Positions 2,587-23,869 of a stretch of 34,806 bases of DNA are shown piece by piece. The stretch is from contig CALJZP010000201.1 of assembly GCA_937983545.1 (NCBI GenBank), positions 1 to 34,806 of the forward strand, in the 5' to 3' direction. The position numbers and the translations under genes were made by a program. This DNA comes from an uncultured Azonexus sp. (lineage in GTDB: Bacteria; Pseudomonadota; Gammaproteobacteria; Burkholderiales; Rhodocyclaceae). The notes below the pieces were generated by a model that worked only from the letters and a program-made list of their open reading frames with translations, did not search any database and was not told the DNA's origin. Every line of letters starts with the position of its first letter. Position 1 is the first letter of the stretch.

Positions 2587-3682
2587 GCAGCCTCTTGCCC
2601 AGAGCGGGCGTCGTATAATGGTAATACCCAAGCTTCCCAAGCGTGCGATGCGAATCGCAAGGTTTACGAGTCCCCAGTCAGACGCTTAATTCTGACGAAT
2701 CTTGACTCGCTTTATCCACCCGCCCGGGTGGGTTCCTTGTCGGTGAATGCCGAACAAGTAATTGTGCTGCTATCTATAAGGGCCTGTGATCGTCCGTTGG
2801 AGACAATGGAGTAGCAGGGGCAAGAAAATAGACAGCACCGGGGTTTCAGCACCCCGTAGCCTAGGAGCAGTGCGTCACTGGTAACGGTGAGGTGCTAAGC
2901 GCTCTGACAATGTAGCCACCTTTAGGGGTACGCCATACCCCGCGAGGGGTTCTGGCGTGATATCGGAAGTTGCATCCGATTGAGGCGCTGGCTGGGCTGG
3001 TTGGCCAACGTAAGTGAATCGCTGCTAAACACCGTCAAGCTTGATGAGCCAAACGCAACTTGTTGTATCGGGCTCTGCCAAAAGGCACGTGATCGGTTGT
3101 CCTCCTGCTTGGTGGGGACACGCTGACATGGCATCACCGGTGGAAAAGCGGGGCCTTCCCAGTTCTGTTACTGGTTCGGAACGCAGTAAGCCTGATTAGG
3201 CGTTCTTTAACAATTAGGCAATCCATAACACCCCGCCCAGTCGTGAGACAGGTTGGGAATGTTAATGCTTACGTGTTTGTTGTTCAGTCCATCTGTGCGT
3301 TGTATCTGGTTAACATATTGATTCCAAAGGCCGGCACCAGTGCCGGTTGGGAAGCTGATATGTGAAAACTGGAAGCATAGGTGGTCCGAGCACTTACCGG
3401 ATACCTGCTTTTGCACGTCAACGTGCAAAGGAAGGGAACACCGGAAAGAACAAGGCGCCCCGCAAGGGTCGCTTTACCTAAGCAGGTAGAGGAGGATGGA
3501 AAAAGCGAATGCCTGCCTGTAATGGGCGGGATAGGGGATGAAACGATTGCCCTGACGTGAAAGCGTGCTGACTTCCATCTGGTGACTCTTCGTGAGAAGG
3601 GTCTGTGTAATCGCGAACCCAAGGGGGTTGATGCTACAATCCCCGCCCGGGGAACGGTTGCGTCTTCCTCCAAAGGTTCAGA

Positions 3683-3757
3683 GCGGGCGTCGTATAACGG
3701 CTATTACCCTTGCTTCCCAAGCAAGAGACGAGGGTTCGACTCCCTTCGCCCGCTCCA
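3683..3757 (+). tRNA. Intact tRNA-Gly(CCC) inside intron domain IV
   Basis: A complete 75-nt tRNA. The acceptor GCGGGCG pairs with CGCCCGC. The D arm is GTA-TAACGGCTAT-TAC. The anticodon stem is CTTGC/GCAAG with loop TTCCCAA (anticodon CCC). The T arm is GAGGG-TTCGACT-CCCTT, and CCA is encoded. It has the same anticodon as the gene the intron interrupts but differs in the D loop, anticodon stem, variable loop and T stem. It is therefore a distinct isoacceptor gene, not a recent copy of the split one. It lies 17 bp before the ATG of the intron protein. A possible -10 (TACAAT, 3635-3640) lies upstream without a convincing -35. It could supply tRNA-Gly(CCC) whatever the fate of the split gene. 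Confidence 0.93.
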
Positions 3758-3774
3758 TACAACCGGAGGTTGAT

Positions 3775-4584
3775 ATGGACGCAACGCAGTTCAATTGCGA
3801 TGTCGCCTCTACGGCTTGGCAGTCTTGGCACGAGATTCAATGGGTCAAGGCTTATCAAGTTGTCGCGAGGTTACAGACACGTATTGCGAAGGCAGCAAAA
3901 GCAGGGGAGTGGCGGAAGGTTCGCACCTTGCAGAGACTCCTGACTAAATCCAGCGGCGCGAAAGCGCTGGCAGTTCGGCGGGTCACGGAGAATCAAGGCC
4001 GGAAAACTCCAGGTGTGGATCAACAAACCTGGGATACGCCGGAAGCGAAGTGGAACGCGGTCGTTGATCTTGGCAACAAGAGATACAAGCCGTTACCGCT
4101 ACGTCGCATCTACATTCCGAAAGCAAACGGTGACAAACGCCCTCTGGGCATTCCCACCATGCGCGATCGGGCGATGCAAGCGCTGCATTTACTGGCGCTG
4201 GAGCCTGTCGCTGAAACAACTGGCGATCATCATTCCTACGGATTCCGACGTGAGCGCTCGACGGCAGATGCCATCGAACAAGTGCGAAACGTGCTGGGCC
4301 GGAAAGCTTCCCCGAAATGGGTGCTGGAAGGAGACATCAAAGGCTGTTTTGACAACTATCATCGAAGTCAGATGGCATCCCGGACGTTTGCAAAGTGCGA
4401 CCATCAAATCTGGCATGCATTGTGGCGCTGGGCGTGCCGCCGTCATCTTCACCACATAATCAAACGATCTCAGCGAGGTTCGGACAAGCTGACCAATCTG
4501 GTTCTGCTGCATCCGAATTGCCACATGCAACACCACGTCTTGGAGAAAACCGGAATTGCTGCCGGTACCTCGATGTTCAAGTAG
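3775..4584 (+). pseudogene. ltrA: Internally deleted group II intron reverse transcriptase/maturase (RT fragment joined to HNH fragment)
   Basis: Start at ATG 3775 with GGAGG at 3765-3769; 269 aa against roughly 450-600 for intact intron proteins. Residues 1-90 match the N-terminal region (TAWQSWHEIQWVKAY, then VTENQGRKTPGVD). Residues ~100-190 cover RT blocks 1-3 (RRIYIPKANGDKRPLGIPTMRDRAMQ, SYGFRRERSTADAI, VLEGDIKGCFDN). The sequence then jumps directly to the thumb/X region (HQIWHALWRWACRRH), and again to the end of an HNH nuclease domain (HHI...GSDKLTNLVLLHPNCH). The YADD catalytic block, most of the thumb and the zinc-finger start of the HNH are missing. The frame has stayed open through at least two deletions. 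It cannot be an active reverse transcriptase. Whether the remnant still helps splicing is unknown. Confidence 0.9.
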
Positions 4585-4603
4585 GGGTGCTTATGGGTTG
4601 CTT

Positions 4604-4678
4604 GAGCCGTATGCGGGGAAACTTGCACGTACGGTTCTTAGGGGAGGGGGTGGCCGTGAGGCCACCTCCTTACCCGCC
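4604..4678 (+). ncRNA. Group II intron domains V and VI
   Basis: Domain V (4604-4637) is a 34-nt hairpin. The lower stem GAGCCGTA pairs with TACGGTTC and carries the AGC catalytic triad. A two-base bulge follows, then the upper stem TGCGGG/CTTGCA closed by a GAAA tetraloop. Domain VI is a 13-14 bp stem (4641-4655 with 4660-4675, loop GTGA) whose only unpaired base is A4672, the expected branch-point adenosine, 6 nt before the 3' splice site at 4678. These are the two most conserved intron parts and appear intact. Confidence 0.9.
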
Positions 4679-4721
4679 TTGTGCCGTGGGTTCGATTCCC
4701 ATCGCCCGCTCCACATCGAAT

Positions 4722-5993
4722 TCAGGCAGGTCGTTGATTGAGTGTGCCGTTACCCGCTTCGCGCACGGTGATTGGCGTCGGCAACACAAGAAATGCCTGG
4801 AGTTGGTTTTCAATTTCTGCCCAGTTTCGCTCACGCTTTACCGTGCGAGTTCGTGGTTTGGGCTGGGGTAGGTTCAGAACTAGCTGCGGCTCAATTTGCG
4901 GGCACACCCACGTCGATAAATCTCCGCTCAAAAGCTGTGTCAGGCTGGCTCCACTGTGAGCTGCAATCTTTAGGCTGGCCTTCAGGGTCGGTGTGCCATC
5001 ACCCTTCAACCAGTTGTGGACCGTGCTTTTGGCGACGCCAATACGTCGAGCGAAGAGAGCACTTTGCCCGTTGTCCATCTCCTCGATGATTTGCGAGATA
5101 GCATTGATGAGGTTGTCGCGCGTTGGTGTGCTCGCCAAAGTTTGCTGAGCATGAACCAACTCACCAATTTGCCGTGCGGCCCATCGTGCGGCAGGGTCGA
5201 TTGAGGCCGTAGCTGGCATTTCCCCCGCTTTCCCAAGGAACTCTCCACAATGAGTGCACCAGCCGGGAACTACATAGGCAGCGGTATGACGAATATTGTC
5301 TTTACCGCAACGCTCGCAGTGCACAACGTGAATGCGCCGTGCCAATTGCCCAGAGAGTGAAACTAGCTGGTAAAGGTCATACGAGCCCACCATGACTATC
5401 TGGGAGCGTCCCTTGTTGGCCAAAGATTTCAACGTGTCCAACTGGATTTCGAGGCGGCTCCGCCGTGTTTGACGAATGATGTGTGCTGCCTCATCGATGA
5501 CGACAAAGCGCGTATCACGCTCCTTCAGGCAGCGCTCTACCGCGGTCCGTAGGCCGGCTAGGCCACCCGGGCTAATGCCGCGAGGACGGACCATTTTCCC
5601 GGTGGTTGCGTCAATCCCATACGCAACCTTGGGGGCGCTCAAGTCTTCCCCCAGTTCGGCCAGTGCTTGGGTATAAAACAGGCGCCAGGAGAAATCGTCC
5701 TCACCCGATGATGGGGCTTCGACATAGACAGCAGGAATCAGCCCCGCATCCGTGTTCATCTCGGGGGTGGCGCCCTCCACTGCTTGTTCGACCATGTAGC
5801 GGGCCAATGTGGTTTTGCCTGCCCCGGTCGGGCCAATCACGAGCAGGATGCTGTCCTGGCTCCCCGGGTAAATCAGGGTATTGAGCTCATTAATGACCTG
5901 CTTGATGCGGGTGTGTTTGATGCGAAGGTTCAGCAGGGATTCGGCCGAGGCGGGAACCGGCGTCAGGGCCGACGGGGAATTTTTGTGAGTCAT
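4722..5993 (-). CDS. tnsC: TnsC-like AAA+ ATPase fused to a TniQ/TnsD-like C-terminal region, probably 3'-truncated
   Basis: This 423-aa protein is the transposition ATPase that links target choice to the TnsAB transposase. Walker A GPTGAGKT is at 54-61, Walker B FVVIDEA at 163-169, a sensor-like VGSYDL at 202-207, and an ARR arginine pair at 218-220. Where a TnsC would continue with its lid, this protein has a zinc ribbon (C226, C229, C246, C249, with PGWCTHCGEFLG). A TniQ-like helix-turn-helix follows (GQSALFARRIGVAKSTVHNWLKG, ~309-331), then an Arg-rich linker and a start of a second HTH (NWAEIENQLQ...TPITVREAG) that stops abruptly at ~412. The last 11 residues look unrelated, so the natural 3' end seems lost beside the tRNA 8 bp away. 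It starts 8 bp after tnsAB, with AGGTG before the ATG. Assignment as ATPase is firm; the TniQ half is inferred from motif pattern. Confidence 0.8.
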   Translation of the reverse strand: MTHKNSPSALTPVPASAESLLNLRIKHTRIKQVINELNTLIYPGSQDSILLVIGPTGAGKTTLARYMVEQAVEGATPEMNTDAGLIPAVYVEAPSSGEDDFSWRLFYTQALAELGEDLSAPKVAYGIDATTGKMVRPRGISPGGLAGLRTAVERCLKERDTRFVVIDEAAHIIRQTRRSRLEIQLDTLKSLANKGRSQIVMVGSYDLYQLVSLSGQLARRIHVVHCERCGKDNIRHTAAYVVPGWCTHCGEFLGKAGEMPATASIDPAARWAARQIGELVHAQQTLASTPTRDNLINAISQIIEEMDNGQSALFARRIGVAKSTVHNWLKGDGTPTLKASLKIAAHSGASLTQLLSGDLSTWVCPQIEPQLVLNLPQPKPRTRTVKRERNWAEIENQLQAFLVLPTPITVREAGNGTLNQRPA

Positions 5994-6001
5994 GGGTCAC
6001 C

Positions 6002-8707
6002 TTAAAAAGTGTCAAAGTCAGGAAGGATTTGCGGTGCTGTCGCCTCAGGCAGCGAATCGCGGGAAGGGATGGAAGGTGATGACCTGTCTTCCGCCATGGA
6101 TGGGGCGGTACTCGATGTTTCCTTGGTGAGGCTGAATTTTTTCAGGGGAGCAACGGGGTTGATGCTGCCAACTTGCAACGTGTTGTAGAGCGATTTGTTT
6201 TCTTGCTGGCGTTCAAGCGCCTCGGCCAAAGCGCCCTCCGGCGTGAACACCTGCATAAACTCCCGCAGACGCTGGCTGGCGCGCTCATCGTCGCCGGCAT
6301 TACCACTGCGGTGGGTGTATTCCTCGGTCAGGGCGCGCCGTTCGAGTTCGGTCAGTTGGCCCAGGCCGAGTAGATTGCGGCAGGTCGCGTGGAGCCAGCG
6401 GTCCTTATGGCGGACGTATACCGACGAGGCATCCCAAGGGTCATAGCGGACGGGCAGACTTTGGCCTGCTATACGAGGGTCGTGGAATTCCGGGTGCCAG
6501 TACAACTGGTCATTCACCTTGACCCCGCGTTGGCGGTTGACGAGGCGAACTCCAGCGCGGTCGACTGGCGGGCATGTCGCAATCAGAAAATCCTGGTTGA
6601 AGAGAATCTGCCGCTGTGGCCGAGCGCCGCTTTCCTTCAGACCGCGCTGAAATGCTTCTCGGGGGCTGCAATCCAAGGCCGGATGACGCTCGTTGTCGTA
6701 AAACTCCGTCGCCCAGAATTCGAGACCAAAGTACGTCGCTTCCAGCGTCCATTCCGCAAAATTAGCCGGCAGATGCTTGCCGGTCACCATGCGTACGTTC
6801 TTGGTGGCTTTCGTGTTGCCAGACAAGTTATGGACGTATTCGCTGTGCGCCCGCCCGAACATGCGTTCGAGGACCGCACCGTGCCGCGGCTGACCGGCTG
6901 GCCGGAAACGCAGATGCACCCCCATCGCCTGGAGGAGGGTCTCAAACGCCGATGACATAAAATCACGGCCATTATCAACGACGATGAACTCAGGCAGCCG
7001 TTCGAAGCGGCGAACCATATCGCGTATCACCATCATCACTGAGTGATAGCACGGGGGGTCGAAGGTCAGGTACATCGCCACGATGCGGCGCGACCAGGCA
7101 TCGACGGCCAGAGTGAGCCAGGGGCGCCCCAAGGGTTTGCCGGTACGACTGGAGACTACCTCCAGGTCGAGCTGGGTATGGTCGATATGCACATACTGGA
7201 ACGGGCGACTGCCATGGACCGGGGTGTCGACGTAGAGCACATCAACAAACTCGCTCATTTGGTAGGCCATGCGTTTGCCATGGCGAACGCGCAGGTCGTG
7301 GGTAGTTTCTTCGGCTTTGATGCGGGCGATGAGGGTCGGGTAAGACGGTACCTTGATGCCTGCTTCATCACAGGCTGCCTTGAGTTTCCGGTAGCACGCC
7401 TTGTAGTTAATGGCCTTATGGCTGCGCCAGTGAGTCTCGATGACGCTTTGAAGAATTTCCTCCTGCTGTTCTGTCAGTCGTGCTGTGCGATTGCCCCGGG
7501 CATCGGTATGCGGTACTAGGGCCAGCACCTCATGGCCGCCATTAAGCAATACAGCGTTCTGGCGTGCCAGCCAGCGTCGCACCGTACGGTCGCAAACGAT
7601 GGCTGGGGGGGTATCAGATTGCAGTATGGCTCGGCGCTGCAACGCTATGTCCAGTTGTGCCTGGTCATAGCGAGCCAGGTCCAGTTTGGCCCTACCAGTT
7701 TCAGTCACTGGCGCAATCCGCTTATGCCTGAGCGCATCGGATAGCCAATCGCGGCTCAGTGTTACGGGTGAGCCACTGCGGCGGGTACAAACGACTTCCG
7801 ATTCACCGACCAGCGAAATGGTCAGCTCCTGGGATTCGTACTCGAAGCGAGTTCCCTCGGCAATGTCGAGGACGAAATGCTCCTGTCCAGGGAGTGTGGC
7901 CGGGGCAACCTCTCCCGCCATGAAATCGCGTACCGTTGTATCGCGGTACAGTCGGCAGCGTCTTGGTTCCATCAGTTTTTCTCGGTCGAGGTCGGCGACA
8001 ACCTGATGGTCTGCGACGGCCTTGAGCAGAACGTCAGCCGAAAAACCATAAGGCTCGGCCATCAACTCGGCGAGATAGCAGGCACCATGTTGGGCAAGTA
8101 CCGCAGCTAGTCGCTTCAAATCGCTTTCAGGGCAGGGCTCAGCGCCTGGATGGAAATAGTCCGCGAGATGCAGGAGGTTCTCGACACGGCGACGAGGAAT
8201 GGCTTCGTCACTGTAGATACGGTAGCGGATTCCCAGGTCAGCCAACTGTCGTTCAATTTGGGGCGATGACCACTGCCCGTCCAAATCCTTGATATAGCGG
8301 TAGGGGTATCGCTCGGCAAGGCGAGCCAGCTTCGGTGCGGACTTCCATTCTTCGAGTGTGAAACCGTCCTCTCGAATGACCAGAAAGTCCGGAAAGTGGT
8401 GGATGTTCCGAATCTCCCCGGTGGCAGAGTCCACAAGTTCCAGCTTCAATTCACAGGGCTGGGCGTAATACTCAATGACTTGGTTGTCGAATTCATGGTC
8501 GACGGCGGCAGCAAACTCAATATGCCGGCTCTCCGTGCGGATTTCACACCCCATCTTACGGCTCGCCATTAGGGTAATGACATTGCCGCCACGGGATTTG
8601 ACCTCGCGTACCGGTGCCAGGGTGCGTGCCTTCAAAATGAGTTCGCGCCCGGCACGGGGGGTGCCGAGGTGTTCGAAGAGTTCGGTAATCTGTTCCTTGT
8701 CCAACAT
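6002..8707 (-). CDS. tnsAB: TnsA-TnsB fusion transposase
   Basis: About 901 aa from the ATG at 8707 (MLDKEQITEL); an in-frame ATG at 8752 would add 15 residues inside the promoter region. Residues 1-170 are a TnsA-type restriction-like endonuclease, which cuts the 5' transposon ends: catalytic pattern E59 (TESRHIEF), D107 (FPDFLV), E120-x-K122 (EEWK), then the conserved RYPYRYI and IRYRIYSDE segments. A helix-turn-helix region lies at ~350-390. The DDE integrase core follows, with Asp in YVHIDHTQLD, Asp in FIVVDNGRDF and Glu in GAVLERMFG. A Mu-type beta-barrel comes next (VNRQRGVKVNDQLYW, WDASSVYV), and then a basic/proline-serine tail likely to contact TnsC. Separate in Tn7, the two subunits are one polypeptide here. 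It forms an operon with the tnsC-like gene. All catalytic residues are present. Confidence 0.9.
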   Translation of the reverse strand: MLDKEQITELFEHLGTPRAGRELILKARTLAPVREVKSRGGNVITLMASRKMGCEIRTESRHIEFAAAVDHEFDNQVIEYYAQPCELKLELVDSATGEIRNIHHFPDFLVIREDGFTLEEWKSAPKLARLAERYPYRYIKDLDGQWSSPQIERQLADLGIRYRIYSDEAIPRRRVENLLHLADYFHPGAEPCPESDLKRLAAVLAQHGACYLAELMAEPYGFSADVLLKAVADHQVVADLDREKLMEPRRCRLYRDTTVRDFMAGEVAPATLPGQEHFVLDIAEGTRFEYESQELTISLVGESEVVCTRRSGSPVTLSRDWLSDALRHKRIAPVTETGRAKLDLARYDQAQLDIALQRRAILQSDTPPAIVCDRTVRRWLARQNAVLLNGGHEVLALVPHTDARGNRTARLTEQQEEILQSVIETHWRSHKAINYKACYRKLKAACDEAGIKVPSYPTLIARIKAEETTHDLRVRHGKRMAYQMSEFVDVLYVDTPVHGSRPFQYVHIDHTQLDLEVVSSRTGKPLGRPWLTLAVDAWSRRIVAMYLTFDPPCYHSVMMVIRDMVRRFERLPEFIVVDNGRDFMSSAFETLLQAMGVHLRFRPAGQPRHGAVLERMFGRAHSEYVHNLSGNTKATKNVRMVTGKHLPANFAEWTLEATYFGLEFWATEFYDNERHPALDCSPREAFQRGLKESGARPQRQILFNQDFLIATCPPVDRAGVRLVNRQRGVKVNDQLYWHPEFHDPRIAGQSLPVRYDPWDASSVYVRHKDRWLHATCRNLLGLGQLTELERRALTEEYTHRSGNAGDDERASQRLREFMQVFTPEGALAEALERQQENKSLYNTLQVGSINPVAPLKKFSLTKETSSTAPSMAEDRSSPSIPSRDSLPEATAPQILPDFDTF

Positions 8708-8758
8708 CGCTGACCTACAAAAGCTGCTGATGTGAACGTGTAGGAACCTCACCTACGC

Positions 8759-8788
8759 TAAAATGACGGTTCGGTCGTATATGACCGA
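8759..8788 (+). promoter_or_regulatory. Promoter and palindromic operator between tnsAB and the DUF6471 gene
   Basis: TAAAAT (8759-8764) resembles a -10 for rightward transcription, without a clear -35. Just downstream TCGGTC (8771-8776) and GACCGA (8783-8788) form a perfect 6-bp inverted repeat around GTATAT, placed where a repressor would block transcription start. Upstream, GTAGG and CCTAC form a second short inverted repeat (8740-8755), with another CCTAC near 8714. The divergent arrangement suggests joint control of both genes. Experimental support is absent. Confidence 0.45.
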
Positions 8789-8831
8789 TTTCGGAGTTTT
8801 TCCCCTCTGCCTTACGGAGGCACTGATTCTG

Positions 8832-9143
8832 ATGCGCCAACCGACATCGCCCGAAAGTATAGTGACTGGACCACTGAAACTGCGTCCGGAGGTTGCCTAC
8901 ACTCCCTGGGAAGACCGCGCCAAGGAATTGTTGGTGGCGGAGATGGAGTATAGGAAGCTTGGCTACAAGGAGTTGGCTCGTCTCCTGGAGCCGTACGGCA
9001 TCGACGAAACGCCAGACCAGATTAACCGCAAGGTCAACCGGAAGCGATTTTCCGCCGCATTCATGCTGGCTTGCCTGGCGGCGATGGGGGTGGCTGCAGT
9101 TAAGGTGCCGGCACAATTGGGGGCGCCGAAGGTGCACAAATAG
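8832..9143 (+). CDS. DUF6471-like small protein, possible regulator of the transposition module
   Basis: About 103 aa from ATG 8832 (MRQPTSPES), with GGAGG at 8816-8820. An upstream ATG at 8763 would place the palindrome inside the gene and is less likely. The core (ELLVAEMEYRKLGYKELARLLEPYGIDETPDQINRKVNRKRFSAAFMLACLAAMGV) matches the pattern of DUF6471 proteins, a short all-helical fold with a Cro-like look (KELARLL ... INRKVNRKRF). It lies divergent to tnsAB across a palindrome. Small genes of this kind often accompany transposition or integration modules, so a role as repressor or accessory DNA-binding factor is plausible but unproven. Confidence 0.65.
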   Translation: MRQPTSPESIVTGPLKLRPEVAYTPWEDRAKELLVAEMEYRKLGYKELARLLEPYGIDETPDQINRKVNRKRFSAAFMLACLAAMGVAAVKVPAQLGAPKVHK

Positions 9144-9493
9144 CGAAATCCGGCTAGCCGAATTTGCTGGTGCACGCCAGCCTGATAAATGCCTATGTTC
9201 TTTTTTCTGCATTGTTCCCACCATCTTGTCCGTTCACAAAATGGGGGGGCTGCCGATTGTCTCTGTGACAATTCGGGTGCAGAAAGCACAGCAAAAATCA
9301 TGTTGGCTCAACAGCCTGCATGAAAGTTATAGCAAAGTAGGTTGTCAAGCAAGGCTGGAGAACGGGATTGGTTTCTGGGTTGATGCCAAGCAGTGATGGG
9401 TAAAGCGTCGCCTAGGCTGAATTTGGTTCGTGGTTTCCCGCTCTGTTTGGGATAATGCCCACGGTCTACAAAAGAAAAGCTCAAGGTTCTGCG
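9144..9493. other. Gene-free stretch with short inverted repeat, possible transposon-end region
   Basis: I see no credible gene here. ATTGTC (9256-9261) and GACAAT (9267-9272) form a 6-bp inverted repeat, and TTGTC occurs again near 9223 and 9343. The region lies between the tns module and the helicase operon and must contain the helicase promoter. It could hold transposase binding sites, since Tn7 sites also carry a GACAA core, but no second end was found to match. Confidence 0.3.
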
Positions 9494-12400
9494 ATGGATG
9501 TATTTGAATTTCGTACCAAGCTGGTATCCGAATATGCGGCTTTTACCCGAAGCTTCACTCGCATCCAGGCCCCAGACATTAAGGCTTTTGTCGACGAGGC
9601 CTACAACTCCGGACGTTATTGGCCTGCTCCCCTTGTTCAGGTCAATCCCAATTTCAAGACAGGCGCCACGGTCGAAACGCTAGTCCAGCAGGGTGGCTTG
9701 CATGCTGAGTGCAGCCGCATCTTCCGAGCTGGCAAATCCACTTCCAGCGCAGGCGTCTCGCTAAGCCTATTCAAACACCAGGAAGAAGCCATCAGCTTCG
9801 CCCAAGGCGGCGAAAGCTACGTTCTGACCACCGGGACGGGTTCAGGTAAGTCACTGGCTTATTTCATACCGGTAGTTGACGCCATTCTCAAGGCGAAGGC
9901 TGCTGACCCCGCACCACAGACTCGAGCCATTGTCATCTACCCAATGAACGCCTTGGCCAATAGCCAGCTCGAAGAACTTGGCAAATTCCTGGCGGACTAC
10001 GGTGACCATAAGCCGGTGACCTATGGCCGTTATACCGGCCAGGAGGATGAAGAAGAGCGCCAGCGCCTCGCATCCAATCCGCCAGACATCTTGCTGACCA
10101 ACTTCATGATGCTTGAACTCCTGATGACTCGTCAGGACGATAAAGACAAAGCTGTCATCCGTAATGCCAAGGGATTGCGTTTCCTGGTCTTGGACGAGCT
10201 GCACACCTATCGGGGGCGACAAGGGGCGGATGTGGCATTGCTGGTCCGGCGCGTTCGTGAGGCATTGGCCGACAAGCTCCAGTGCATAGGCACCTCGGCC
10301 ACCATGGCAACCGAGGGTAGTGAGCAGGAGAAAAACACCAAGGTCGCTGAAGTGGCCAGCCGCTTGTTCGGCGTACCTCTGACGGCCGCTAACGTCATTA
10401 CCGAAACCCTTCAGCGCGTTACACCGGAAGACCTGTTGGTGGACCATATCCGGTCACAATTGGGTCAAGCGATTCGTGCGGGACTCCCTTCGGGTGCATC
10501 GTTCTTGGAGTTGGCTCGCCATCCTCTGGCTATCTGGGTAGAGCTCACGCTGGGTTTGACACGCAATGAAGGCAAGTGGCGCCGAGCTCAGCCGATTACG
10601 CTGGAGGCAGCTGCCGACCAGCTGGCAGCAGACAGCGGTGTCGAGGTTGAAGTGGCCAAGCAGGTGCTGGCAGATTTTCTGTTACTTGCCTACCGCACGA
10701 CCGATAAACCCGCTGAAGAGGGTGGCCGGAGCCTCTTCGCCTTCAAGCTGCACCAATTTATCTCGGGCGGTAGCAAGGTCTACGGCTCGCTGGAACCGGA
10801 AGGCAAACGCTACCTGACGCTGGAAGGGAGCCAGTTTGTTCCGGGCGACCGGTCCCGCCGCCTCTATGCACTGCATTTCTGTCGTGAGTGTGGGCAAGAA
10901 TATGTTCCCGTCTGGGATGAAAACTCCGCAAGCGGCCGCACCTTCAGTCCGCGCAATATCGAAGAGCGCAACCACGACGACGAAGACATCAAGAGCGGCT
11001 ACTACATGCCGGATACCAGCGGTATCTGGGAGGACACCCTCGACCGTTATCCGGAGACGTGGCTCGAGCAACGTCAGAATGGCGACCTAAAGCTGAAATC
11101 CAACTATAAAAAGCGCCAGCCGTATCACGTCAGGCTCAATGCCGAAGGGGTGCATACTGCCGATGGCACGCCGGGCTGGTACATTCCGGGCAGCTTCGGC
11201 TTCTGCCTACGCTGTGGCGTTGTGCATCAGACGGCCGGCAAGGAGTCTTTGCGACTGACCGGGCTTTCCGGCGAGGGGCGTAGTTCCGCCACGACCATGC
11301 TGACCCTCTCGGCCTTGCGCTATCTCTACGAAGAGGATGAGCAGCTCAAGGCGGAAGCCAAGAAGGTTCTCGGGTTTACAGACAACCGCCAGGATGCGGC
11401 CCTTCAGGTCGGCCATTTCAACGATTTCCTTCAGGTTCTTCTGCAACGCGCAGCCCTGCTGGCGGCAGTGCAGAAAGCCGGCGGTAGCTTGACCGAGGCA
11501 GAGGTATCTGACGCGGTCTTTAAATCCCTTGGGTTCGACCGAGACGACCCCGGTGTGCGCGCCGAGTACATGCAGGACCCCGACATCAAGGGCAATGCCC
11601 GTCGCCAGGTGCAGGACATCATGCGCGCTATTCTGGGCTACAGGGTGTATTTCGACCTGCGCCGCGGGTGGCGTTTCAACAACCCGAACCTTGAGCAACT
11701 CGGCCTCGTTCATATCGAATATCAGGACCTCGACGACCTGGTGTCCGACAAGGAATCCTGGGCCGATGCGCCGCTGATTCTGCTGGCCGCCTCGCCTGAT
11801 GTTCGCAAGCGTCTGCTCATCAAGCTTTTTGATGCCATGCGACAAGGGCTTTGCCTGGCCTCCCGCTTCCTTGACCGCACGGAATTGGACCGCCTCAAGA
11901 CGTCCAGCTATGCGAACCTGCGCGAACCTTGGGGCTTTACCGAGGACGAAAACCCCATTTCCTCCAACTGGTTCATCACCACCGGCAAGCCGCGCGATGA
12001 GGACCGTCGCAACGTCGATTATCTTGTGTCGGGTAGTGCCCGCTCCAAGCTCGGCAAGGACATCAAGAAGAGCAGTGTCTGGCGGGAATTGGATGGCAGC
12101 GACAACCCCCACGCCGCCAAAATCAAGGACGAGCATTACGAGGAAATCGTCCGAGCACTGCTCAAGGCCGCTAAATCTTATGGCCTGGTCGTGGCCGAGG
12201 AAACAGAATTCGGCATGACTGGGTATCAGTTGAACGGTACCAGCCTACTTTGGACCGTTGGGGACGGGCAAAGCAAACGAGGCGCTGATGACAACGCCTT
12301 CTTCCGCAGTCTCTACGGCAATATCGCCGGCTTGCTCGCCAATCCAGTTCATCGTCTCTACGACTTCGAGGCTCGGGAACATACAGCGCAGGTCGAGCAA

Positions 12401-14800
12401 GACGACCGCCTGGAGCGCGAGGCCCGTTTCCGCTTCACGCCAAAAGACAAGGCCGACTGGCTGACTGCGAAAGGCAAGCCCTTGGAGTGGCTGCCGGTGC
12501 TGTTCTGCTCGCCGACGATGGAGCTCGGGGTCGACATCTCGTCGCTCAATACGGTCTATCTGCGCAACGTCCCGCCGACGCCGGCCAACTATGCCCAGCG
12601 CAGTGGTCGTGCCGGTCGTGCCGGGCAGCCAGCGCTGGTCATTACCTATTGTGCTGCCCAGTCGCCGCATGACCAGTATTTCTTCCGTGACCCAGTACGA
12701 ATGGTTCATGGCCAAGTGAATCCGCCCACCCTAGACCTGGCGAACCGCGAACTTATCCAGAGCCACCTGCATGCGGTCTGGCTGGCGGAGACGGGGAAGA
12801 AACTTGATAACAGCGTGCGTGGCCTGCTCGATATGAACGACCCGGCAGCACCGTTGACCGACGAGTACAAACAGCAGATGGATGCCGATGCGCCCCAGAA
12901 GCGGGCACATGTCCGAGGGCTGCGTATCTTGTCAATGCTGTCCGGGGAACTGACTCCACAGAAAGCGCCTTGGTACACAGAGCACTTTGCCGAGCAGGTC
13001 TTCCGCCAGGCATTTACCTCCTTCGACAAGGCGCTCGACCGCTGGCGCGACCTCTTCGCCGCCACCAAGCGACAGATGGAAATCAACCAGAAGGTGATGA
13101 ACAACCCTGCGGCCAGCGAACGTGACCGACGCGATGCCAAGCAGCGCCACGACGAGGCCTTTAGGCAACAGTCGCTACTCCTCCAGGAATCTGGCTCGGC
13201 CAATTCGGATTTCTATACCTATCGCTACCTGGCCAGCCAGGGTTTCCTACCCGGCTACAATTTCCCACGCCTGCCACTCATGGCTTACATCCCGGCGCGC
13301 AAGGGCAAGATTGGCCGCGAGAACTTCCTTTCCCGTCCGCGGTTCCTGGCGCTGTCGGAGTTCGGCCCCTACAGCCTCATCTATCACGAGGGTAGCCAGT
13401 ATCGGGTCACCCGCGCCATGCTCTCAGTCGGCTCTGATGACCAGGTATCCATTGGCGCCAAGCTCACGACCGATGTGGCGCGCATCTGCCCGGTTTGTGG
13501 CTATGGCCATTTCCGCAATCAGCGGGATGCCGACCGCTGTGTCTCCTGTAATGCGACACTGGCCGATGCCGTGGCCGTGCAGAACCTCTACCGTATCGAG
13601 AACGTCTCCACCAAGCGGGCGGAACGCATCACCGCCAATGAGGAAGAGCGGGTGCGCCAAGGCTATGAGATGCAGACCACCATTCAGTTCGGCGAGCAGG
13701 ATGGCAAGCTCCAGGTGATGCATGCGCTCCTGAAGGACGGCGACACCCCGATGCTGGAATTGCAATATGGCTCAGCGGCCACCGTCTGGCGCATGAATCT
13801 GGGTTGGCGGCGCCGTAAGGAAAAGAGCCTGCTCGGTTTCATGATTAACCCGGTGACTGGCCATTGGATGGGCGGTGCCGAGGAAGCCGGGGAGCCGGAC
13901 CCAGAAACGCCACCCGACAAGACACCGCCGCAGCGCATCGTTCCCTACGTCGAGGACCGGCGCAACGTCCTTATCGTGCGCCCGCTCGAAGAGTTGGACA
14001 TCAAGACCATGGCCACCTTGCAATACGCACTGAAGCGAGGCATTGAGGCGGTATATCAGCTCGAGGAGAGCGAATTGATGGCCGAGCCGCTCCCCAAGGC
14101 TGACCTGCGTCGTGCCATCCTGTTCTACGAGTCGGCTGAGGGCGGCGCAGGGGTGCTTACCCGCATTGCAACGGAACCGGACGCGCTCGCCCAGGTCGCC
14201 GCGGAAGCGCTGGCTATCATGCATTACCAGCGGCCAGCCAATGGGCATTGGGAGCAAGCGAACCTAACTGATGACCTGGGTCCGAATGGCCAGCCCATCT
14301 GCGAGGCCGGCTGCTACAAATGCCTGCTCTCGTACTACAACCAGCCGGACCACCTTCACATCGACCGCCAGGATGCGGACAACGAAGGCAAGGCGCTGGA
14401 TATTCTTTGTCAACTGACACGTTCCCACGGCGAGGTTGGCAGCTTTGGCCGTACTCCGGAGCAGCAGAAGGGCGAACTCCAACGCATTGCTGGCAGTTCG
14501 TTGGAGCAAGCCTGGCTGGATTTCGTGCAGGCCAACGGCTATCGCGCGCCCGATTCAGGGCAGCACACGATTGAACGCTGCCAGACAACCGCCGATTTTT
14601 ACTACGCCGACTGGAAGGCTGCCATATTCATTGATGGCCCCCACCATGAAGCGCCAGCGCAGGCTGGCAAGGACCAATCCATCAATGCATGCCTGGAAGC
14701 TGGCGGCTATTACGTCGTGCGCTTCCCCAAGGAAAAAGATGTCTGGCCAGCAATCTTCGAAGCGCACGCAGATTTATTCGGAGCTGGTAGGTCACTCTGA
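9494..14800 (+). CDS. Giant DEAD/DEAH-box helicase with DUF1998 and C-terminal Vsr/DUF559-like nuclease
   Basis: About 1768 aa from ATG 9494 (MDVFEFRTKL), which fits the usual start of this family better than ATG 9455. In order: Walker A TGTGSGKS (113-120); DEAH-type box DELH (234-237), then motif III GTSATMA; two zinc-knuckle halves HFCRECGQEY (~465) and FCLRCGVV (~575); the second RecA lobe with ELGVDISSLN and QRSGRAGRAG (~1035-1045); a zinc ribbon CPVCGYGHF...CVSCNATL (~1335); a DUF1998/MZB region with FYESAEGGAGVL and CEAGCYKCLLSYYNQPDH (~1545-1615). The C-terminal 100 residues (SSLEQAWLDFV...TADFYYADWKAAIFIDGPHHE) match a Vsr/DUF559-like PD-(D/E)XK nuclease. Such helicases occur in defence systems (DISARM DrmA/DrmB, Druantia DruE). 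It leads a four-gene operon. The exact system type is not certain. Confidence 0.88.
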   Translation: MDVFEFRTKLVSEYAAFTRSFTRIQAPDIKAFVDEAYNSGRYWPAPLVQVNPNFKTGATVETLVQQGGLHAECSRIFRAGKSTSSAGVSLSLFKHQEEAISFAQGGESYVLTTGTGSGKSLAYFIPVVDAILKAKAADPAPQTRAIVIYPMNALANSQLEELGKFLADYGDHKPVTYGRYTGQEDEEERQRLASNPPDILLTNFMMLELLMTRQDDKDKAVIRNAKGLRFLVLDELHTYRGRQGADVALLVRRVREALADKLQCIGTSATMATEGSEQEKNTKVAEVASRLFGVPLTAANVITETLQRVTPEDLLVDHIRSQLGQAIRAGLPSGASFLELARHPLAIWVELTLGLTRNEGKWRRAQPITLEAAADQLAADSGVEVEVAKQVLADFLLLAYRTTDKPAEEGGRSLFAFKLHQFISGGSKVYGSLEPEGKRYLTLEGSQFVPGDRSRRLYALHFCRECGQEYVPVWDENSASGRTFSPRNIEERNHDDEDIKSGYYMPDTSGIWEDTLDRYPETWLEQRQNGDLKLKSNYKKRQPYHVRLNAEGVHTADGTPGWYIPGSFGFCLRCGVVHQTAGKESLRLTGLSGEGRSSATTMLTLSALRYLYEEDEQLKAEAKKVLGFTDNRQDAALQVGHFNDFLQVLLQRAALLAAVQKAGGSLTEAEVSDAVFKSLGFDRDDPGVRAEYMQDPDIKGNARRQVQDIMRAILGYRVYFDLRRGWRFNNPNLEQLGLVHIEYQDLDDLVSDKESWADAPLILLAASPDVRKRLLIKLFDAMRQGLCLASRFLDRTELDRLKTSSYANLREPWGFTEDENPISSNWFITTGKPRDEDRRNVDYLVSGSARSKLGKDIKKSSVWRELDGSDNPHAAKIKDEHYEEIVRALLKAAKSYGLVVAEETEFGMTGYQLNGTSLLWTVGDGQSKRGADDNAFFRSLYGNIAGLLANPVHRLYDFEAREHTAQVEQDDRLEREARFRFTPKDKADWLTAKGKPLEWLPVLFCSPTMELGVDISSLNTVYLRNVPPTPANYAQRSGRAGRAGQPALVITYCAAQSPHDQYFFRDPVRMVHGQVNPPTLDLANRELIQSHLHAVWLAETGKKLDNSVRGLLDMNDPAAPLTDEYKQQMDADAPQKRAHVRGLRILSMLSGELTPQKAPWYTEHFAEQVFRQAFTSFDKALDRWRDLFAATKRQMEINQKVMNNPAASERDRRDAKQRHDEAFRQQSLLLQESGSANSDFYTYRYLASQGFLPGYNFPRLPLMAYIPARKGKIGRENFLSRPRFLALSEFGPYSLIYHEGSQYRVTRAMLSVGSDDQVSIGAKLTTDVARICPVCGYGHFRNQRDADRCVSCNATLADAVAVQNLYRIENVSTKRAERITANEEERVRQGYEMQTTIQFGEQDGKLQVMHALLKDGDTPMLELQYGSAATVWRMNLGWRRRKEKSLLGFMINPVTGHWMGGAEEAGEPDPETPPDKTPPQRIVPYVEDRRNVLIVRPLEELDIKTMATLQYALKRGIEAVYQLEESELMAEPLPKADLRRAILFYESAEGGAGVLTRIATEPDALAQVAAEALAIMHYQRPANGHWEQANLTDDLGPNGQPICEAGCYKCLLSYYNQPDHLHIDRQDADNEGKALDILCQLTRSHGEVGSFGRTPEQQKGELQRIAGSSLEQAWLDFVQANGYRAPDSGQHTIERCQTTADFYYADWKAAIFIDGPHHEAPAQAGKDQSINACLEAGGYYVVRFPKEKDVWPAIFEAHADLFGAGRSL

Positions 14801-14828
14801 TGCAATAAACCAGCAAGGGTAATGGCAA

Positions 14829-15542
14829 ATGCAATATAGAAATATCAGTCGGCTTCACTCTGCAATTCTGCTGGTAGGGAAAATGCATTTGAGTGGCTAC
14901 GAGGGGCTACGAATTATGCCGGTGCTTGCTGATGACGGCTCTTACAAAATACTCGTCGGTCCCAGGCTTTGTTTCTCCAATAAGGATGGCTCGTTTGTGC
15001 CAACCGATTTACGCGGCAGATGTGTTGTTTTCGATGGAACTGAAGATAACTTAAATGAGTTGGCTCCTAGAGAAGCAATAGAGCAGAGGTATTTTTCGCG
15101 AGGGCGTCAGTTAAGTGGAGAGGTCCAGGCACCTACCGCACAGCAATTAGCTCAGTTTGCCGAATGGCTAAGTCATGCAAAAGTTAAAGACGCTGACTAT
15201 CAGCAGTGGTTCGTATATCTATGTGGACGAATAGCAATTGACGAACTGGGACTACCGTACAAGAAGGATGATGAAGCCATCGCCCCTCGAAATTCCTTGT
15301 TCTTTGCTCGTTTTAAGGATGAAAACAGTTCGGTAGTTCGCGTAGGTGTTCCGGAGCCTTTTACAAACCCTCCTGTAGGGAAAGCTGTATCAAGTGGTCC
15401 GTGGCAAGCGAAGGCCCCGGACGTCGCTGTGGCTCAGGCGAGACCGAAAGATGCCCCTGAGCTTATCTGGTCGGTTGAAAGTGGAAAACGCGGCAATGCC
15501 CAATTGGATGAGTGGTTCGAAGACTACACTCACCGCAGCTAA
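14829..15542 (+). CDS. Uncharacterised 237-aa protein in the defence operon
   Basis: I do not recognise this family. The protein is soluble and without signal peptide or membrane segments. The N-terminal segment (HSAILLVGKMHLSGYEGLRIMPVLADDGSYKILVGP) resembles a small domain I associate with short proteins near helicases, but I cannot name it. The middle (TAQQLAQFAEWLSHAKVKDADYQQWFVYLCGRIA) is helical. The C-terminus is proline/alanine-rich and then acidic. ATG 14829 keeps the whole N-terminal segment; a later ATG at 14883 would cut it. It sits 28 bp after the helicase gene and 12 bp before the SNF2 gene, so it is co-transcribed with both. It is visibly more AT-rich and less codon-biased than its neighbours. 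Confidence 0.8.
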   Translation: MQYRNISRLHSAILLVGKMHLSGYEGLRIMPVLADDGSYKILVGPRLCFSNKDGSFVPTDLRGRCVVFDGTEDNLNELAPREAIEQRYFSRGRQLSGEVQAPTAQQLAQFAEWLSHAKVKDADYQQWFVYLCGRIAIDELGLPYKKDDEAIAPRNSLFFARFKDENSSVVRVGVPEPFTNPPVGKAVSSGPWQAKAPDVAVAQARPKDAPELIWSVESGKRGNAQLDEWFEDYTHRS

Positions 15543-15554
15543 GGAAAAATAGTT

Positions 15555-18395
15555 ATGCAGTACCAGTTTCAACCCGGTAGCCTGGTTTCAGCTCGTGGAC
15601 GTGAATGGATTGTCCTGCCACAGTCCTCTGACGACACCCTGCACCTGCGTCCGTTGGGTGCCGCGGAGGATGATGCGACGCTAATCTACCTGCCGATTGA
15701 ACCCGGCCATGTCGGTCCGGCAACGTTCCCGAAACCTTCCATCCAACAAGCTGCCAACTTCGCAGCTGGCCAACTGCTACGTGATGCCCTGCAACTGAAA
15801 CTGCGCACTGGCGCAGGCCCCTTCCGCAGCTTTGGCAACATCGCCGTCGAACCGCGCGCTTACCAGCTAGTACCACTACTGATGGCCTTGAAGCAGGAAG
15901 TCGTGCGCCTGCTGATTGCGGACGATGTCGGTATCGGGAAAACCATCGAGGCCGCGCTAATCGTCCGGGAATTACTCGACCGCGGCGAAATTAGCCGCTT
16001 GGCGGTGTTGTGCCCTCCGCACCTGTGCGAGCAGTGGCAGCGCGAGCTGAAACAACGCTTCCACATCAATGCCGTTGTTGTACGCAACACGACCGCCAAT
16101 CGCTTGGAACGCGGCCTACCCGCCAACCAATCGGTATTCGAAGCCTACCCATTTACCGTCGTTAGTCTCGACTACATCAAGTCCGACCGCCGTCGGGATG
16201 AATTCCAGCGTGCCTGCCCGGAGTGTGTAATCGTCGACGAGGCACATACCTGCACCTACAGCGGACAGGGCAAGCAGCAACGCTACACCCTGCTCAAGGG
16301 ACTGGTCGAAAACCCCGAGCGCCACCTCATAATGCTTACCGCCACTCCACACTCCGGCGATGAAGAAGCTTTCTACAACCTGTTGGGTTTGCTCAACCCC
16401 GAGTTCAAAGAACTGAAAGACATTCCTTCAGATAGCCGTCGCCCATTGCGCGAACAGTTGGCAAATCATTTCGTCCAGCGCCGCCGCCCCGACATCGAGG
16501 AATGGCAGGACAGTAGCGTCTTCCCAGAGCGCTTCTCCACCGAAGTGACTTACAAACTCACTGGTGAGTGGGGGCGGCTGTTCGATGACGTACTCGAATA
16601 TGCCCGCACCCTAGTTGTCCGTGCCGAAGGCCAGGGTCTGCTTCAGCAGCGCATGAGCTGGTGGGCGGCGTTAGCCTTGCTGCGCTGTATCTCCTCGTCA
16701 CCGGCCGCCGCCATCAACGCCCTGAGGACTCGCCTCTCAGGTACGACGCTCGCTGAGGGCGCAGCTGAGATTGAGGCACTGACCCTGGAAGAAACCGAGG
16801 AGCAGGGTCGCGAGCGAGTTCTCGATGGCCAGGAGGACAACCTTTCTACGCAGGACATTGAGCCGGGTGCCCGCACCGAGGATACCGAGTGGCTAAGCGA
16901 CCTGATTGACCGTGCCGAGGGACTGACCGGCGTTGCCAAGGACCCCAAACTCAAGCGCCTCATCGAACACCTCAAGGAGCTCACCGCAGCCGGCTTCCAA
17001 CCGGTTATCTTTTGCCGCTACATTGCAACTGCGCATTACGTGGCTGAGCAATTGCGCACGGTTTTCCGCGACCATCTGGTCACCCCTGTCACCGGCGAAT
17101 TTTCCCCTTCCGAGCGCGAAGCAACGGTGGAAGCGATGGGTGAGGCCGAGCAGCGCATCCTAGTCGCCACCGACTGCCTGTCGGAAGGTATCAACCTCCA
17201 GAACCTCTTCACCGCGGTCGTTCATTACGACCTATCCTGGAACCCGACTCGCCACGAACAGCGGGAAGGTCGCGTCGACCGTTTTGGTCAGAAGGCCCGG
17301 GAAGTGCGCACCACGATGCTCTACGGCCAGGACAACCCGGTTGATGGCGCCGTACTGCAAGTCATCCTGCGCAAGGCCGAGAGTATTCGCAAGGAGCTCG
17401 GTGTGCTGGTGCCTATGCCCGATGACGAGGGCAAGCTAACACAGGCGCTGGTCGGTGCCGTGCTGCTGCGCAAAGGGACCACGGCCAGCAAGATGCCCCA
17501 AATGGGCCTGGACTTCGGTGAGCCCGAGGCAGCCATCGACACTGCCTGGCAATCGGCTCGAGACAAAGCATCTAAGAACCGTACGTTGTTCGCCCAACGT
17601 CGTCTGAAACCCGAGGACGTCCTGCCTGAGTGGCAGAAAACCCTGGCGGTCCTGGGCGGCGAAGATGATGTCGAACGCTTTGTCAGACGTGCTGCTCTGC
17701 AACTCGGCGCACCGCTGGAAGCCGCGAGCAAGACGGGAGCTATCCACTGGAAGCTCCATGCCGGTAGTTTGCCGGGGGCCGTGCGCGAGCGGCTTGAAGG
17801 CGAAGGCCTGGCAGGCACGTTGCGTGTCGATTTCCATCAGCCTGCCGCGACGGGAGCACAGTTCATTCATCGAACCCATCCCTTGGTTTCCGCGCTTGCC
17901 GACTACCTGCTCGAGTCAGCGCTGGAGAATTCGGCCGCTAATGACAATGCCTTGGATGCTGTGGCGCGGGCCGGCGCAATTTTTACGGAGGCGGTTCAGG
18001 TCAAAACCACCGTGCTGCTGGTGCGTTTGCGTCATCAGTTGACCGTGACCCATCGCGGTGAATCGCGCTTGCTGTTGTGTGAAGAAACGCTAACCGTTGG
18101 TGTTCCGGCCGTTGAAAATCTGCCGCTTCTTGAGGACGCTGTTGCCCGCGCCCTGATGGCAGCCGAGCCCGCCCGGAACATGCCACCGCCCCTCCGCGAC
18201 CAGCATATCCAGCGTGCTCTCGACCAGTTGGATACCCAGCAGTCGACTCTGGAAATCTTGGCGCGCAAGCGGGCTCAGTTGCTGCTTGATGACCATCGGC
18301 GTGTCCGTGAGGCAGCGCAGGGTCGTGGGGAATATCGTGTGACTCCAAGTTTGCCTGTCGACGTCATGGGCGTCTTCGTCCTCATCCCGGCCTAA
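15555..18395 (+). CDS. SNF2-type helicase, DrmD-like
   Basis: This 946-aa protein is a superfamily 2 DNA translocase of the SNF2/RapA type. The Q/I region reads LLIADDVGIGKTIEAALIVRELL (D123 onward; Walker A VGIGKT). Motif II is VDEAHT (~D228) and motif III is LTATPHSGDEEAF. The second lobe is near 490-600: VTGEFSPSERE, LVATDCLSEGINLQNLFTAVVHYDLSWNPTRHEQREGRVDRFGQ, which contains motifs V and VI. The N-terminal 90 residues are a small barrel-like region; the last 300 residues are helical and lack a known motif. The layout matches DISARM DrmD-type helicases, which run with an Eco57I-like methylase as here. It starts 12 bp after the previous gene, and AAGGA precedes the ATG. Confidence 0.88.
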   Translation: MQYQFQPGSLVSARGREWIVLPQSSDDTLHLRPLGAAEDDATLIYLPIEPGHVGPATFPKPSIQQAANFAAGQLLRDALQLKLRTGAGPFRSFGNIAVEPRAYQLVPLLMALKQEVVRLLIADDVGIGKTIEAALIVRELLDRGEISRLAVLCPPHLCEQWQRELKQRFHINAVVVRNTTANRLERGLPANQSVFEAYPFTVVSLDYIKSDRRRDEFQRACPECVIVDEAHTCTYSGQGKQQRYTLLKGLVENPERHLIMLTATPHSGDEEAFYNLLGLLNPEFKELKDIPSDSRRPLREQLANHFVQRRRPDIEEWQDSSVFPERFSTEVTYKLTGEWGRLFDDVLEYARTLVVRAEGQGLLQQRMSWWAALALLRCISSSPAAAINALRTRLSGTTLAEGAAEIEALTLEETEEQGRERVLDGQEDNLSTQDIEPGARTEDTEWLSDLIDRAEGLTGVAKDPKLKRLIEHLKELTAAGFQPVIFCRYIATAHYVAEQLRTVFRDHLVTPVTGEFSPSEREATVEAMGEAEQRILVATDCLSEGINLQNLFTAVVHYDLSWNPTRHEQREGRVDRFGQKAREVRTTMLYGQDNPVDGAVLQVILRKAESIRKELGVLVPMPDDEGKLTQALVGAVLLRKGTTASKMPQMGLDFGEPEAAIDTAWQSARDKASKNRTLFAQRRLKPEDVLPEWQKTLAVLGGEDDVERFVRRAALQLGAPLEAASKTGAIHWKLHAGSLPGAVRERLEGEGLAGTLRVDFHQPAATGAQFIHRTHPLVSALADYLLESALENSAANDNALDAVARAGAIFTEAVQVKTTVLLVRLRHQLTVTHRGESRLLLCEETLTVGVPAVENLPLLEDAVARALMAAEPARNMPPPLRDQHIQRALDQLDTQQSTLEILARKRAQLLLDDHRRVREAAQGRGEYRVTPSLPVDVMGVFVLIPA

Positions 18396-18414
18396 AACAG
18401 GAGTTCAGAAAAAT

Positions 18415-21654: not shown

Positions 21655-22460
21655 AGCAACGAGATGGCTGGCCAGAAAACACGTTGCTCCGCTCAGCCCC
21701 CAAAGAGGTGCTGCATCTTTCAGTGACGCGAGATGCACTCGACCGGGCACTCGGGATTACGGATGCCCTTATAAAAGCACTTATCCAGCGCGGCTTTGAT
21801 GTGGAGGTCGATGGCGAGCGTAGTGCAACCACACTGAAATACATCGAAACCGGCACCACGTTGGAGTTTGCGTTGACCGAATACATTCGCCGTACGCGTC
21901 ACGAAATTACCCCAGCGGAAGAGCGCGCCCGAAAACGCTACTGGGAGCGTTCGCGTTGGGATAACTCAGTTAGTTTTCCGCATGTGCCGATGTATGACTA
22001 CACCCCAACTGGAAGTCTCACCATTCAGATTGGCCGATGGCCATCTCGAAACTGGAAGGACACCCCGAAAACCCAGCTCGAAAAACGCCTCGGAGAAGTT
22101 GTTGGTGGCATCGTAGCCCTTGCCCACGAAACGCACGCCAAAGAGCTTGAAGAGGCGCGACGCAAAGAAGCGCACCGGCGTGCTGTGGAGCGCTATGAGT
22201 TTCTAACCAAACGACGCGAAGATGAAGTCGAACGCTTCAAGGAAGTCGAAGCCAGGGCGACAGATTGGGAGCGGGCCATGCGCCTACGTGCGTTTGCGGA
22301 CGCAGTAGAGGCTCAGGCAAAGTTGGCTGGCGAACTATCTCCTGAATACGTGGAGTGGCTTGCTTGGACTCGCGCGAAAGCCGATTGGCTGGACCCACTG
22401 ATTCTAGTCAGCGACCCGATTCTCGACGCACCAGAACCCAAACGTCCTGGCTATTGGTAG
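21576..22460 (+). pseudogene. 3' part of an HTH-type hypothetical gene fused by deletion to the methyltransferase end
   Basis: The frame ending at 22460 can be read back to about 21576 as a proline-rich linker (RPPLPPPEESPPSAVHPLVRAA) that continues sensibly into the 277-aa ORF starting at 21627. From memory, proteins with this middle and C-terminal part (VTRDALDRALGITDALIKALIQRGFDVEV, then TPTGSLTIQIG, then a long charged coiled coil EEARRKEAHRRAVERYEFLTKRREDEVERFKEVE) carry an N-terminal helix-turn-helix ahead of the linker. That part is missing here. The overlap with the methyltransferase end, in a different frame, fits a deletion that removed the 3' end of one gene and the 5' end of the other. 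No ribosome-binding site is seen at 21627, so expression is doubtful. Confidence 0.7.
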
Positions 22461-22482
22461 GAGTTTCTGCCCGATAAAGCAT

Positions 22483-22511
22483 GAAGCCCATGTCGGTTAT
22501 ACATGGGCTTC
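22483..22511 (+). terminator. Perfect hairpin after the defence operon
   Basis: GAAGCCCATGT (22483-22493) and ACATGGGCTTC (22501-22511) form an 11-bp perfect stem with a 7-base loop, 22 bp after the last stop codon. There is no strong T run on the plus side, so it may work as a weak terminator or an mRNA-stabilising end. Confidence 0.6.
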
Positions 22512-23441: not shown

Positions 23442-23673
23442 GGTGGATAACTCCTCCAGTGGTTGGTGACGTCACTGTAAGTCGTAGCTCGTTACCAAAA
23501 AATCAATCCGCTGCTGATTTTATATTCGAAAAAATCGAACCCATGCAAATGGTTGGTGAGTTTTTGCAGGATGCTGACCCCAATGGGCGCACTCAGCCAT
23601 TGGGCGGGGTAGAGAGGGCAATTTTTGAGGGGAGCAGCTCAAAATCTCCCTGTCTTCCAAGCCAGTATTTTTT

Positions 23674-23775
23674 GGACACCTTATGCTTAATTTTTTGCCG
23701 ATAGGACAGTTTATGTTTTATCGGCATCCAAGGGACTCGGCGTGAGGCCTGATGCTGCGGACGGGTTATGCTTTA
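23674..23775 (+). repeat. Three imperfect direct repeats GGACnnnTTATGyTTwA
   Basis: GGACACCTTATGCTTAA (23674-23690), GGACAGTTTATGTTTTA (23704-23720) and GGACGGGTTATGCTTTA (23759-23775) share 17 bases with few differences; starts are 30 and 55 bp apart. The middle copy lies inside an inverted repeat GCCGATA/TATCGGC. A related sequence in opposite orientation is at 22471-22484 (ATAAAGCAT core, just after the defence operon). Such spaced direct repeats are typical of binding sites for transposases or site-specific recombinases at element ends, but no matching enzyme is next to them. Confidence 0.55.
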
Positions 23776-23869
23776 TTCCTCGGTCACATTACGAATAACG
23801 AAACATTGAGACTGGCACCATATTTGCGGTGATTGCAAAGATATCGTTATCAGAGCCAAATAAAGTAAG

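Follow-up and report, generated by a model that had tools for sequence, protein, structure and literature searches.

According to the parts of the literature on which we draw here, Tn7-like elements insert downstream of tRNA genes (PMC8649781), and a branch of them that combines a fused TnsA-TnsB transposase with a tRNA-targeting TnsD is the source of the I-B2 and I-D CASTs (PMC11406308). When TnsD recognizes the att site, TnsABC is recruited, with TnsC recruiting TnsAB (PMC12585508). The core shared by TniQ and TnsD comprises Hel1, a zinc finger, a connector and Hel2, to which homing versions of TnsD add C-terminal HTH domains; homing by CyCAST places the insertion 30-33 nt past the tRNA (PMC10293859). 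A fusion of TnsC with TnsD or TniQ was not found in the portions of the open-licence literature that were accessible.

The window, by which we mean the whole stretch of 34,806 nucleotides analyzed here, comes from an uncultured Azonexus sp. and harbors a transposon whose parent family is already known. Next to its tnsAB gene, a stretch that the sequence-only reading took to encode a target selector and an ATPase regulator in one polypeptide is indeed a real reading frame of 423 aa on the minus strand (Table 1); that reading had named no strand, and the plus-strand reading of 4722-5993 contains stops. Three close relatives, namely L084 (in genome G1101), L085 (G1109) and L086 (G708), share the gene order of the window, but they have tnsC and tnsD as separate genes and a complete transposon end on the tRNA side. 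Our analysis points to the one-piece protein being an accidental deletion product, most likely non-functional, within an element that belongs to a known Tn7-like branch and is decaying; to this reading we assign a probability of roughly 87%.

Table 1. Positions in the window of the transposon, its ends and target site, and the genes and junctions at its tRNA-proximal side
Feature	Position	Strand	Remarks
Tn7-like element	4743-23805		19,063 bp; delimited by the TTGAG duplication and the empty site in G708
Target tRNA-Gly(CCC), 3' part	4685..4713	plus	insertion 29 nt downstream
Target-site duplication TTGAG, left copy	4738..4742	plus	
Remnant of tRNA-proximal transposon end	4743..4752	plus	terminal 10 bp TGTGCCGTTA (TAACGGCACA read outward)
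Deletion 2 junction	4752..4753	minus	472 bp missing; C-terminal part of tnsD and subterminal TnsB sites of that end gone
Deletion 1 junction	5309..5310	minus	830 bp missing relative to L084/L085/L086; TT (2 bp) common; tnsC joined in frame to tnsD
Chimeric ORF	5993->4722	minus	423 aa, ATG start; TnsC residues 1-228, TnsD residues 160-345 and 9 residues from transposon tip/host DNA
TnsA-TnsB fusion transposase, full length	6002..8752	minus	start homologous to the L084/L085 start at about 8707
Distal transposon end with TnsB-site-like repeats	23672..23805	plus	terminus TAACGAAACA; TAACGGCACA in three relatives
Target-site duplication TTGAG, right copy	23806..23810	plus	

The extent of the element can be fixed from a related genome with an unoccupied target. 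In the empty site of G708 (L110), 60 bases identical to positions 4683-4742 of the window directly adjoin sequence that shares 91% identity with the stretch after position 23805, and the TTGAG that occurs there once is found on both flanks of the element in the window. Hence, the element is delimited as given in Table 1, inserted 29 nt past the 3' end of tRNA-Gly(CCC) with a 5-bp target-site duplication. Its TnsAB contains the Tn7_TnsA-like_N, rve and Mu-transpos_C domains of Pfam, matches PmcCAST TnsAB (9bw1_M, 6e-141) and keeps its motifs, including those residues which we take to be catalytic.

The two ends are in very different states. A TnsB-site pattern allowing up to three mismatches gave no match at the proximal end; at the distal end it gave one match where 0 were expected, with further repeats being visible there by eye. 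The distal terminus keeps these TnsB-site-like repeats, and the proximal terminus is down to its last 10 bp. The distal end is shared by relatives, with positions of about 22476-23806 being 91-92% identical in L111 and L112; two of the last ten bases at its terminus differ from those in L111, L112 and L113. More widely, 10 of 12 loci from relatives have behind tnsD an end that conforms, with slight variation, to TGGCCACTTTATGCTTAACGGCACA (it is absent in L042 and L044), and these ends adjoin tRNA-Ala(CGC), tmRNA or another tRNA gene where ARAGORN found one, with none being found in L038. Judged from its sequence, the window element is by descent a decayed and incomplete Tn7-like member. Since the proximal end is devoid of TnsB sites, we infer that the element is immobile.

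The chimeric ORF can be dissected into its two sources. Pfam profiles identify AAA_22 at residues 46-210, the best stretch of TniB at residues 148-228 and a CI-repressor-type HTH at residues 308-358. In phmmer searches against solved structures, the match for residues 20-234 is PmcCAST TnsC (8fcu_Q, 9.1e-26) and that for residues 242-357 is PmcCAST TnsD over its residues 193-315 (8v32_J, 2.4e-11). The latter match is far beyond chance, which establishes that the zinc-ribbon/HTH half is derived from TnsD; the proposal of a TniQ-family ribbon followed by an HTH and a linker was thus well founded. Retained in the chimera are the TnsC ATPase core with Walker A/B and the Arg pair and, from TnsD, the HTH and the second ribbon's full set of four cysteines. 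The description of the first half as a normal AAA+ core is accurate in part: a TnsC core with the P-loop and Walker B is recognized by Pfam and phmmer, but the C-terminal third of TnsC, a lid-side region equivalent to residues 229-346 of the L084 protein, is missing. TniQ (PF06527) is not among the best 25 of 40 Pfam families for the chimera; in the intact L084 TnsD this domain spans residues 22-153, and the chimera begins only at residue 160. Residues 346-445 of L084 TnsD, that is its C-terminal region, are likewise deleted. The TnsC and TnsD residue numbers of the chimera were counted by hand on alignments. An AlphaFold2 model of the chimera built on a 15-row alignment was too poor for use (mean pLDDT 53, pTM 0.40).

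The sequence-only reading was also right in seeing no separate tniQ or tnsD in the window. At E <= 0.001, a whole-assembly search with PF06527 recovered matches at two places on contig C17 and on contig C245, and none on the window contig, C201. As a source of TnsD in trans from the same genome the C17 and C245 proteins were rejected, as their similarity to L084 TnsD is confined to short stretches of 24-35% identity and stray matches of 9-12 residues.

We examined whether the fusion recurs among homologs of its two halves. L084 encodes a TnsC of 346 aa and a TnsD of 445 aa as separate ORFs, with 93% and 98% protein identity to the TnsC and TnsD parts of the chimera, respectively; the corresponding values are 92% and 96% for L085, and 85% and 83% for L086, both of which also have separate genes. 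L084 and L085 occupy the tRNA-Gly site of the window element; L086 lies elsewhere, and its tnsAB match comprises only the last 315 aa. Counting these, both halves were found side by side at 32 distinct sites other than the window, and at every one of them (0/32 fused) they are two ORFs, extending to two distant kin with 24-34% identity (L138 and L019/L030). These sites were obtained from 38 two-ORF neighbor rows over all loci retrieved, among which the window was the only single-ORF sequence, and the rows were merged by DNA clustering and contig: the clustering yielded 30 groups, one placing L084 and L085 together with the window and another uniting contigs L095 and L096. The G092 contig, with two copies, and L098, where tnsC is present twice, each count as one site.

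Searches of genome samples gave the same picture; the samples overlap, with the window's own genome (G000) in each, and hence their counts are not additive. Within the genus, 11 of 76 genomes match, with the fusion seen only in G000 and the halves on two close ORFs in G1101, G1109, G708 and G716. At the family level (20 of 297 genomes matched) there was no second fused ORF: the two halves (N, about residues 5-234; C, about residues 224-415) are on separate neighboring ORFs in G182, G206, G067, G034, G092 and G212, and on different contigs in G228. The order-level (11 of 399 genomes matched) and class-level (2 of 369) searches also found no fused ORF besides that of the window, and none was found in a scan of the contigs of named genomes, which brought up 25 loci, including two that are from Paenibacillus and match weakly. 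One of 42 plasmid records covers at least 80% of the query, in two pieces; the best plasmid match, L044, was examined for a fusion and has none. Some loci with a single half lie at contig ends and are uninformative: L087 (G685) displays only tnsD, the C half, because its contig ends there, and G690:C472 has part of the N half. A conserved TnsC-TnsD fusion is accordingly rejected, with none at the 32 sites and one among the 76 genus genomes, which is the window's own. The homologs bear the proposed selector and regulator as two adjacent genes, including three neighbors 83-98% identical to the chimera, which is the very outcome that the sequence-only reading had named as refuting its idea of a single polypeptide.

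The searches also brought up shortened and differently placed kin. L038, L041, L042, L043 and L122 have solo frames of 196-282 aa that match only the C half of TnsD, with breakpoints that differ among L038, L041, L042 and L043; a tRNA gene lies beside L041, L042 and L043, and in L038 ARAGORN detects none and a partial tRNA-like stretch is seen by eye. These frames are probably remnants of the family of the window element. Separately, the family members L033, L034 and L039 adjoin a tmRNA gene, with their tnsD side toward it. A literature search found no tmRNA-directed TnsD, and the word tmRNA is absent from the accessible part of PMC10293859.

DNA alignment with L084, L085, L086 and L087 indicates how the chimera arose. 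The first deletion joins tnsC codon 228 to tnsD Cys160; beyond it, tnsD can be followed to Gly345, where the second deletion brings in the terminal 10 bp of the transposon end, so that the last nine codons are supplied by the tip of the transposon and by host DNA that spans the target duplication. In protein terms, the losses are TnsC 229-346 (118 aa), TnsD 1-159 (all of the TniQ domain) and TnsD 346-445 (100 aa). The alignments show that the fusion and the absence of the predicted TnsB-binding sites at the tnsC-tnsD end go back to two deletions, apparently later than the insertion. DNA identity to L084 rises across the junction, from about 88.5-88.6% (window 9244-5309) to 97.5% (5310-4753). 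Recombination of two elements as the origin of this jump was rejected, since L084 and L085 differ likewise on the two sides (85.7% and 96.4%), and the jump is thus not specific to the chimera.

The window between 4353 and 5310 contains four deletions relative to close relatives within ~1 kb (555, 306, 472 and 830 bp), with 0-3 shared junction bases as read by eye. Such a cluster in a fragmented genome of 326 contigs and 86% completeness raises the question of an assembly artefact. However, the junctions are clean and keep the frame, and a search of the remainder of that 86% complete assembly did not recover the deleted pieces; we give this explanation scarcely any weight.

On the reading as a deletion product, the following course of events accounts for the locus. 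An ordinary Tn7-like transposon with a fused TnsA-TnsB and a tRNA-targeting TnsD entered the site past tRNA-Gly(CCC). As the alignment to close relatives shows, one deletion fused tnsC in frame to the middle of tnsD, and another left tnsD running into the final 10 bp of the element, with loss of the proximal TnsB-binding sites. Both were probably ordinary short-homology or slippage events, with 0-2 shared bases at either junction as read by eye. The presumed outcome is an immobile element with an open chimeric ORF, which is most likely non-functional, as its TnsC part has lost the C-terminal third and its TnsD part both the TniQ domain and the C-terminal region; these lost regions would presumably be essential in this element. 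Decay is supported by the shortened kin, namely the C-half frames of L038, L041, L042, L043 and L122 and the 315-aa tnsAB match of L086.

Several observations count against decay. The fusion is in frame near a domain edge, with 4/4 cysteines of the second ribbon kept, and TnsAB retains both its full length and its motifs. The chance of an in-frame joining is one in three for a single deletion; the 555- and 306-bp deletions, which lie in the neighboring group II intron ORF (compared with L116), also keep the frame, and the 3/3 frame-testable deletions in ~1 kb that do so have a chance of 1 in 27, a coincidence for which we can offer no explanation. Further, there is no clear excess of amino-acid change in the retained segments, where the DNA is too close to the relatives to tell decay from use. 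Changes unique to the window are 15 synonymous and 4 non-synonymous in tnsC and 5 and 1 in tnsD (the 1 being the junction codon), and many may predate the deletions; the corresponding counts are 22/0 (tnsC) and 5/2 (tnsD) for L084, and 22/4 and 4/3 for L085.

These observations leave some room for a functional chimera. In general terms, the deletion might have produced in one step a minimal single chain, with the TnsC core covalently tied to the TnsD ribbon and HTH, that still binds target DNA and acts on TnsAB, either as a short-circuited selector or by inhibiting intact relatives; we regard this as very unlikely. Less likely still is a regulatory by-product that would bind DNA or intact TnsC/TnsAB and thereby repress or exclude related elements at the tRNA-Gly site: the ORF is intact and its DNA-binding modules are kept, its start codon lies 8 bp past the tnsAB stop with the same spacing as in L084, and related elements are present in the genus, but the fusion is unconserved, and the solo tnsD ORFs elsewhere break at differing points, as decay predicts. 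The least probable reading is that of a working single-chain selector and ATPase regulator, in which the covalent link would replace the TniQ-TnsC contact and the ribbon/HTH half would bring the core to the tRNA site. The in-frame join near a domain edge, the preserved ribbon cysteines, Walker A/B and Arg pair and the intact upstream tnsAB are consistent with such a protein. However, the fusion was seen once only and is without the C-terminal 118 aa of TnsC, the TniQ domain and the C-terminal 100 aa of TnsD, and with the TnsB sites of one end lost the element would probably be unable to respond even to a working protein.

The surroundings and cargo of the element present features of their own. 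The host tRNA-Gly(CCC) gene is split by a group II intron (window 2604-4713), which carries an intact tRNA-Gly(CCC) at 3683-3757, just before its reverse-transcriptase ORF. Among six other loci examined in the genus, the order intron start, tRNA, intron end is found in L116, L147, L148 and L149; L151 has the intron start and tRNA only, and L150 the tRNA only. The split 3' half of the tRNA was aligned only in L116. It looks as if the intron brings along a replacement for the gene that it breaks, a situation on which a literature search returned nothing obvious. The cargo at 9455-21654 resembles a phage-defence cluster, with genes for a DruE/MrfA-like DEAD helicase (whose end weakly matches DUF559), an unknown 237-aa protein, a DpdE/DrmD-type SNF2 helicase and a DrmMI/type IIG-like methyltransferase. 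Beside the distal end, inside the element, is a Bax1-I (inhibitor of apoptosis-like) gene (22767-23441), which travels with that end in G708 and G730 (L111 and L112; 91-92% DNA identity). The ~6 kb that follow the element (23811-29826) are absent in G715 (L109), where ~100 bp separate the tRNA from sequence homologous to 29826, and also in G730 (L112), where the transposon end directly adjoins the homolog of 29838. This segment may represent a further insertion or rearrangement at the element's hotspot.

The locus mainly holds a caution, in that a single instance of a fusion, even one that is open, in frame and placed at a domain edge, can be the scar of a deletion, a matter settled here by close relatives. 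If the fusion worked, its covalent link could bypass the TniQ-TnsC interface, which would be useful for simpler programmable transposons. The analysis also yields a well-delimited tRNA-Gly-targeted transposon in Betaproteobacteria, with ends, duplication, empty site and close relatives.

Among described systems, the closest is the branch that pairs a TnsA-TnsB fusion with a tRNA-targeting TnsD and gave rise to I-B2 PmcCAST and the I-D CASTs, with the TnsAB, TnsC and TnsD parts of the window matching PmcCAST proteins. The insertion 29 nt past the tRNA 3' end compares with 30-33 nt for CyCAST in the accessible part of PMC10293859. In contrast to CASTs, Cas-named matches among the scanned ORFs are confined to the cargo helicases, which cross-match Cas3 weakly. 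One described protein, the TniQ-TnsF fusion (GenBank SCZ64694), resembles the chimera in fusing components of the target-selection pathway; however, it unites two target-selection proteins with no ATPase, and is a single case in what was accessible of the paper reporting it (PMC10293859). What sets the window element apart from the known branch is that its tnsC and tnsD have been fused and shortened by deletion and that one of its ends is lost.
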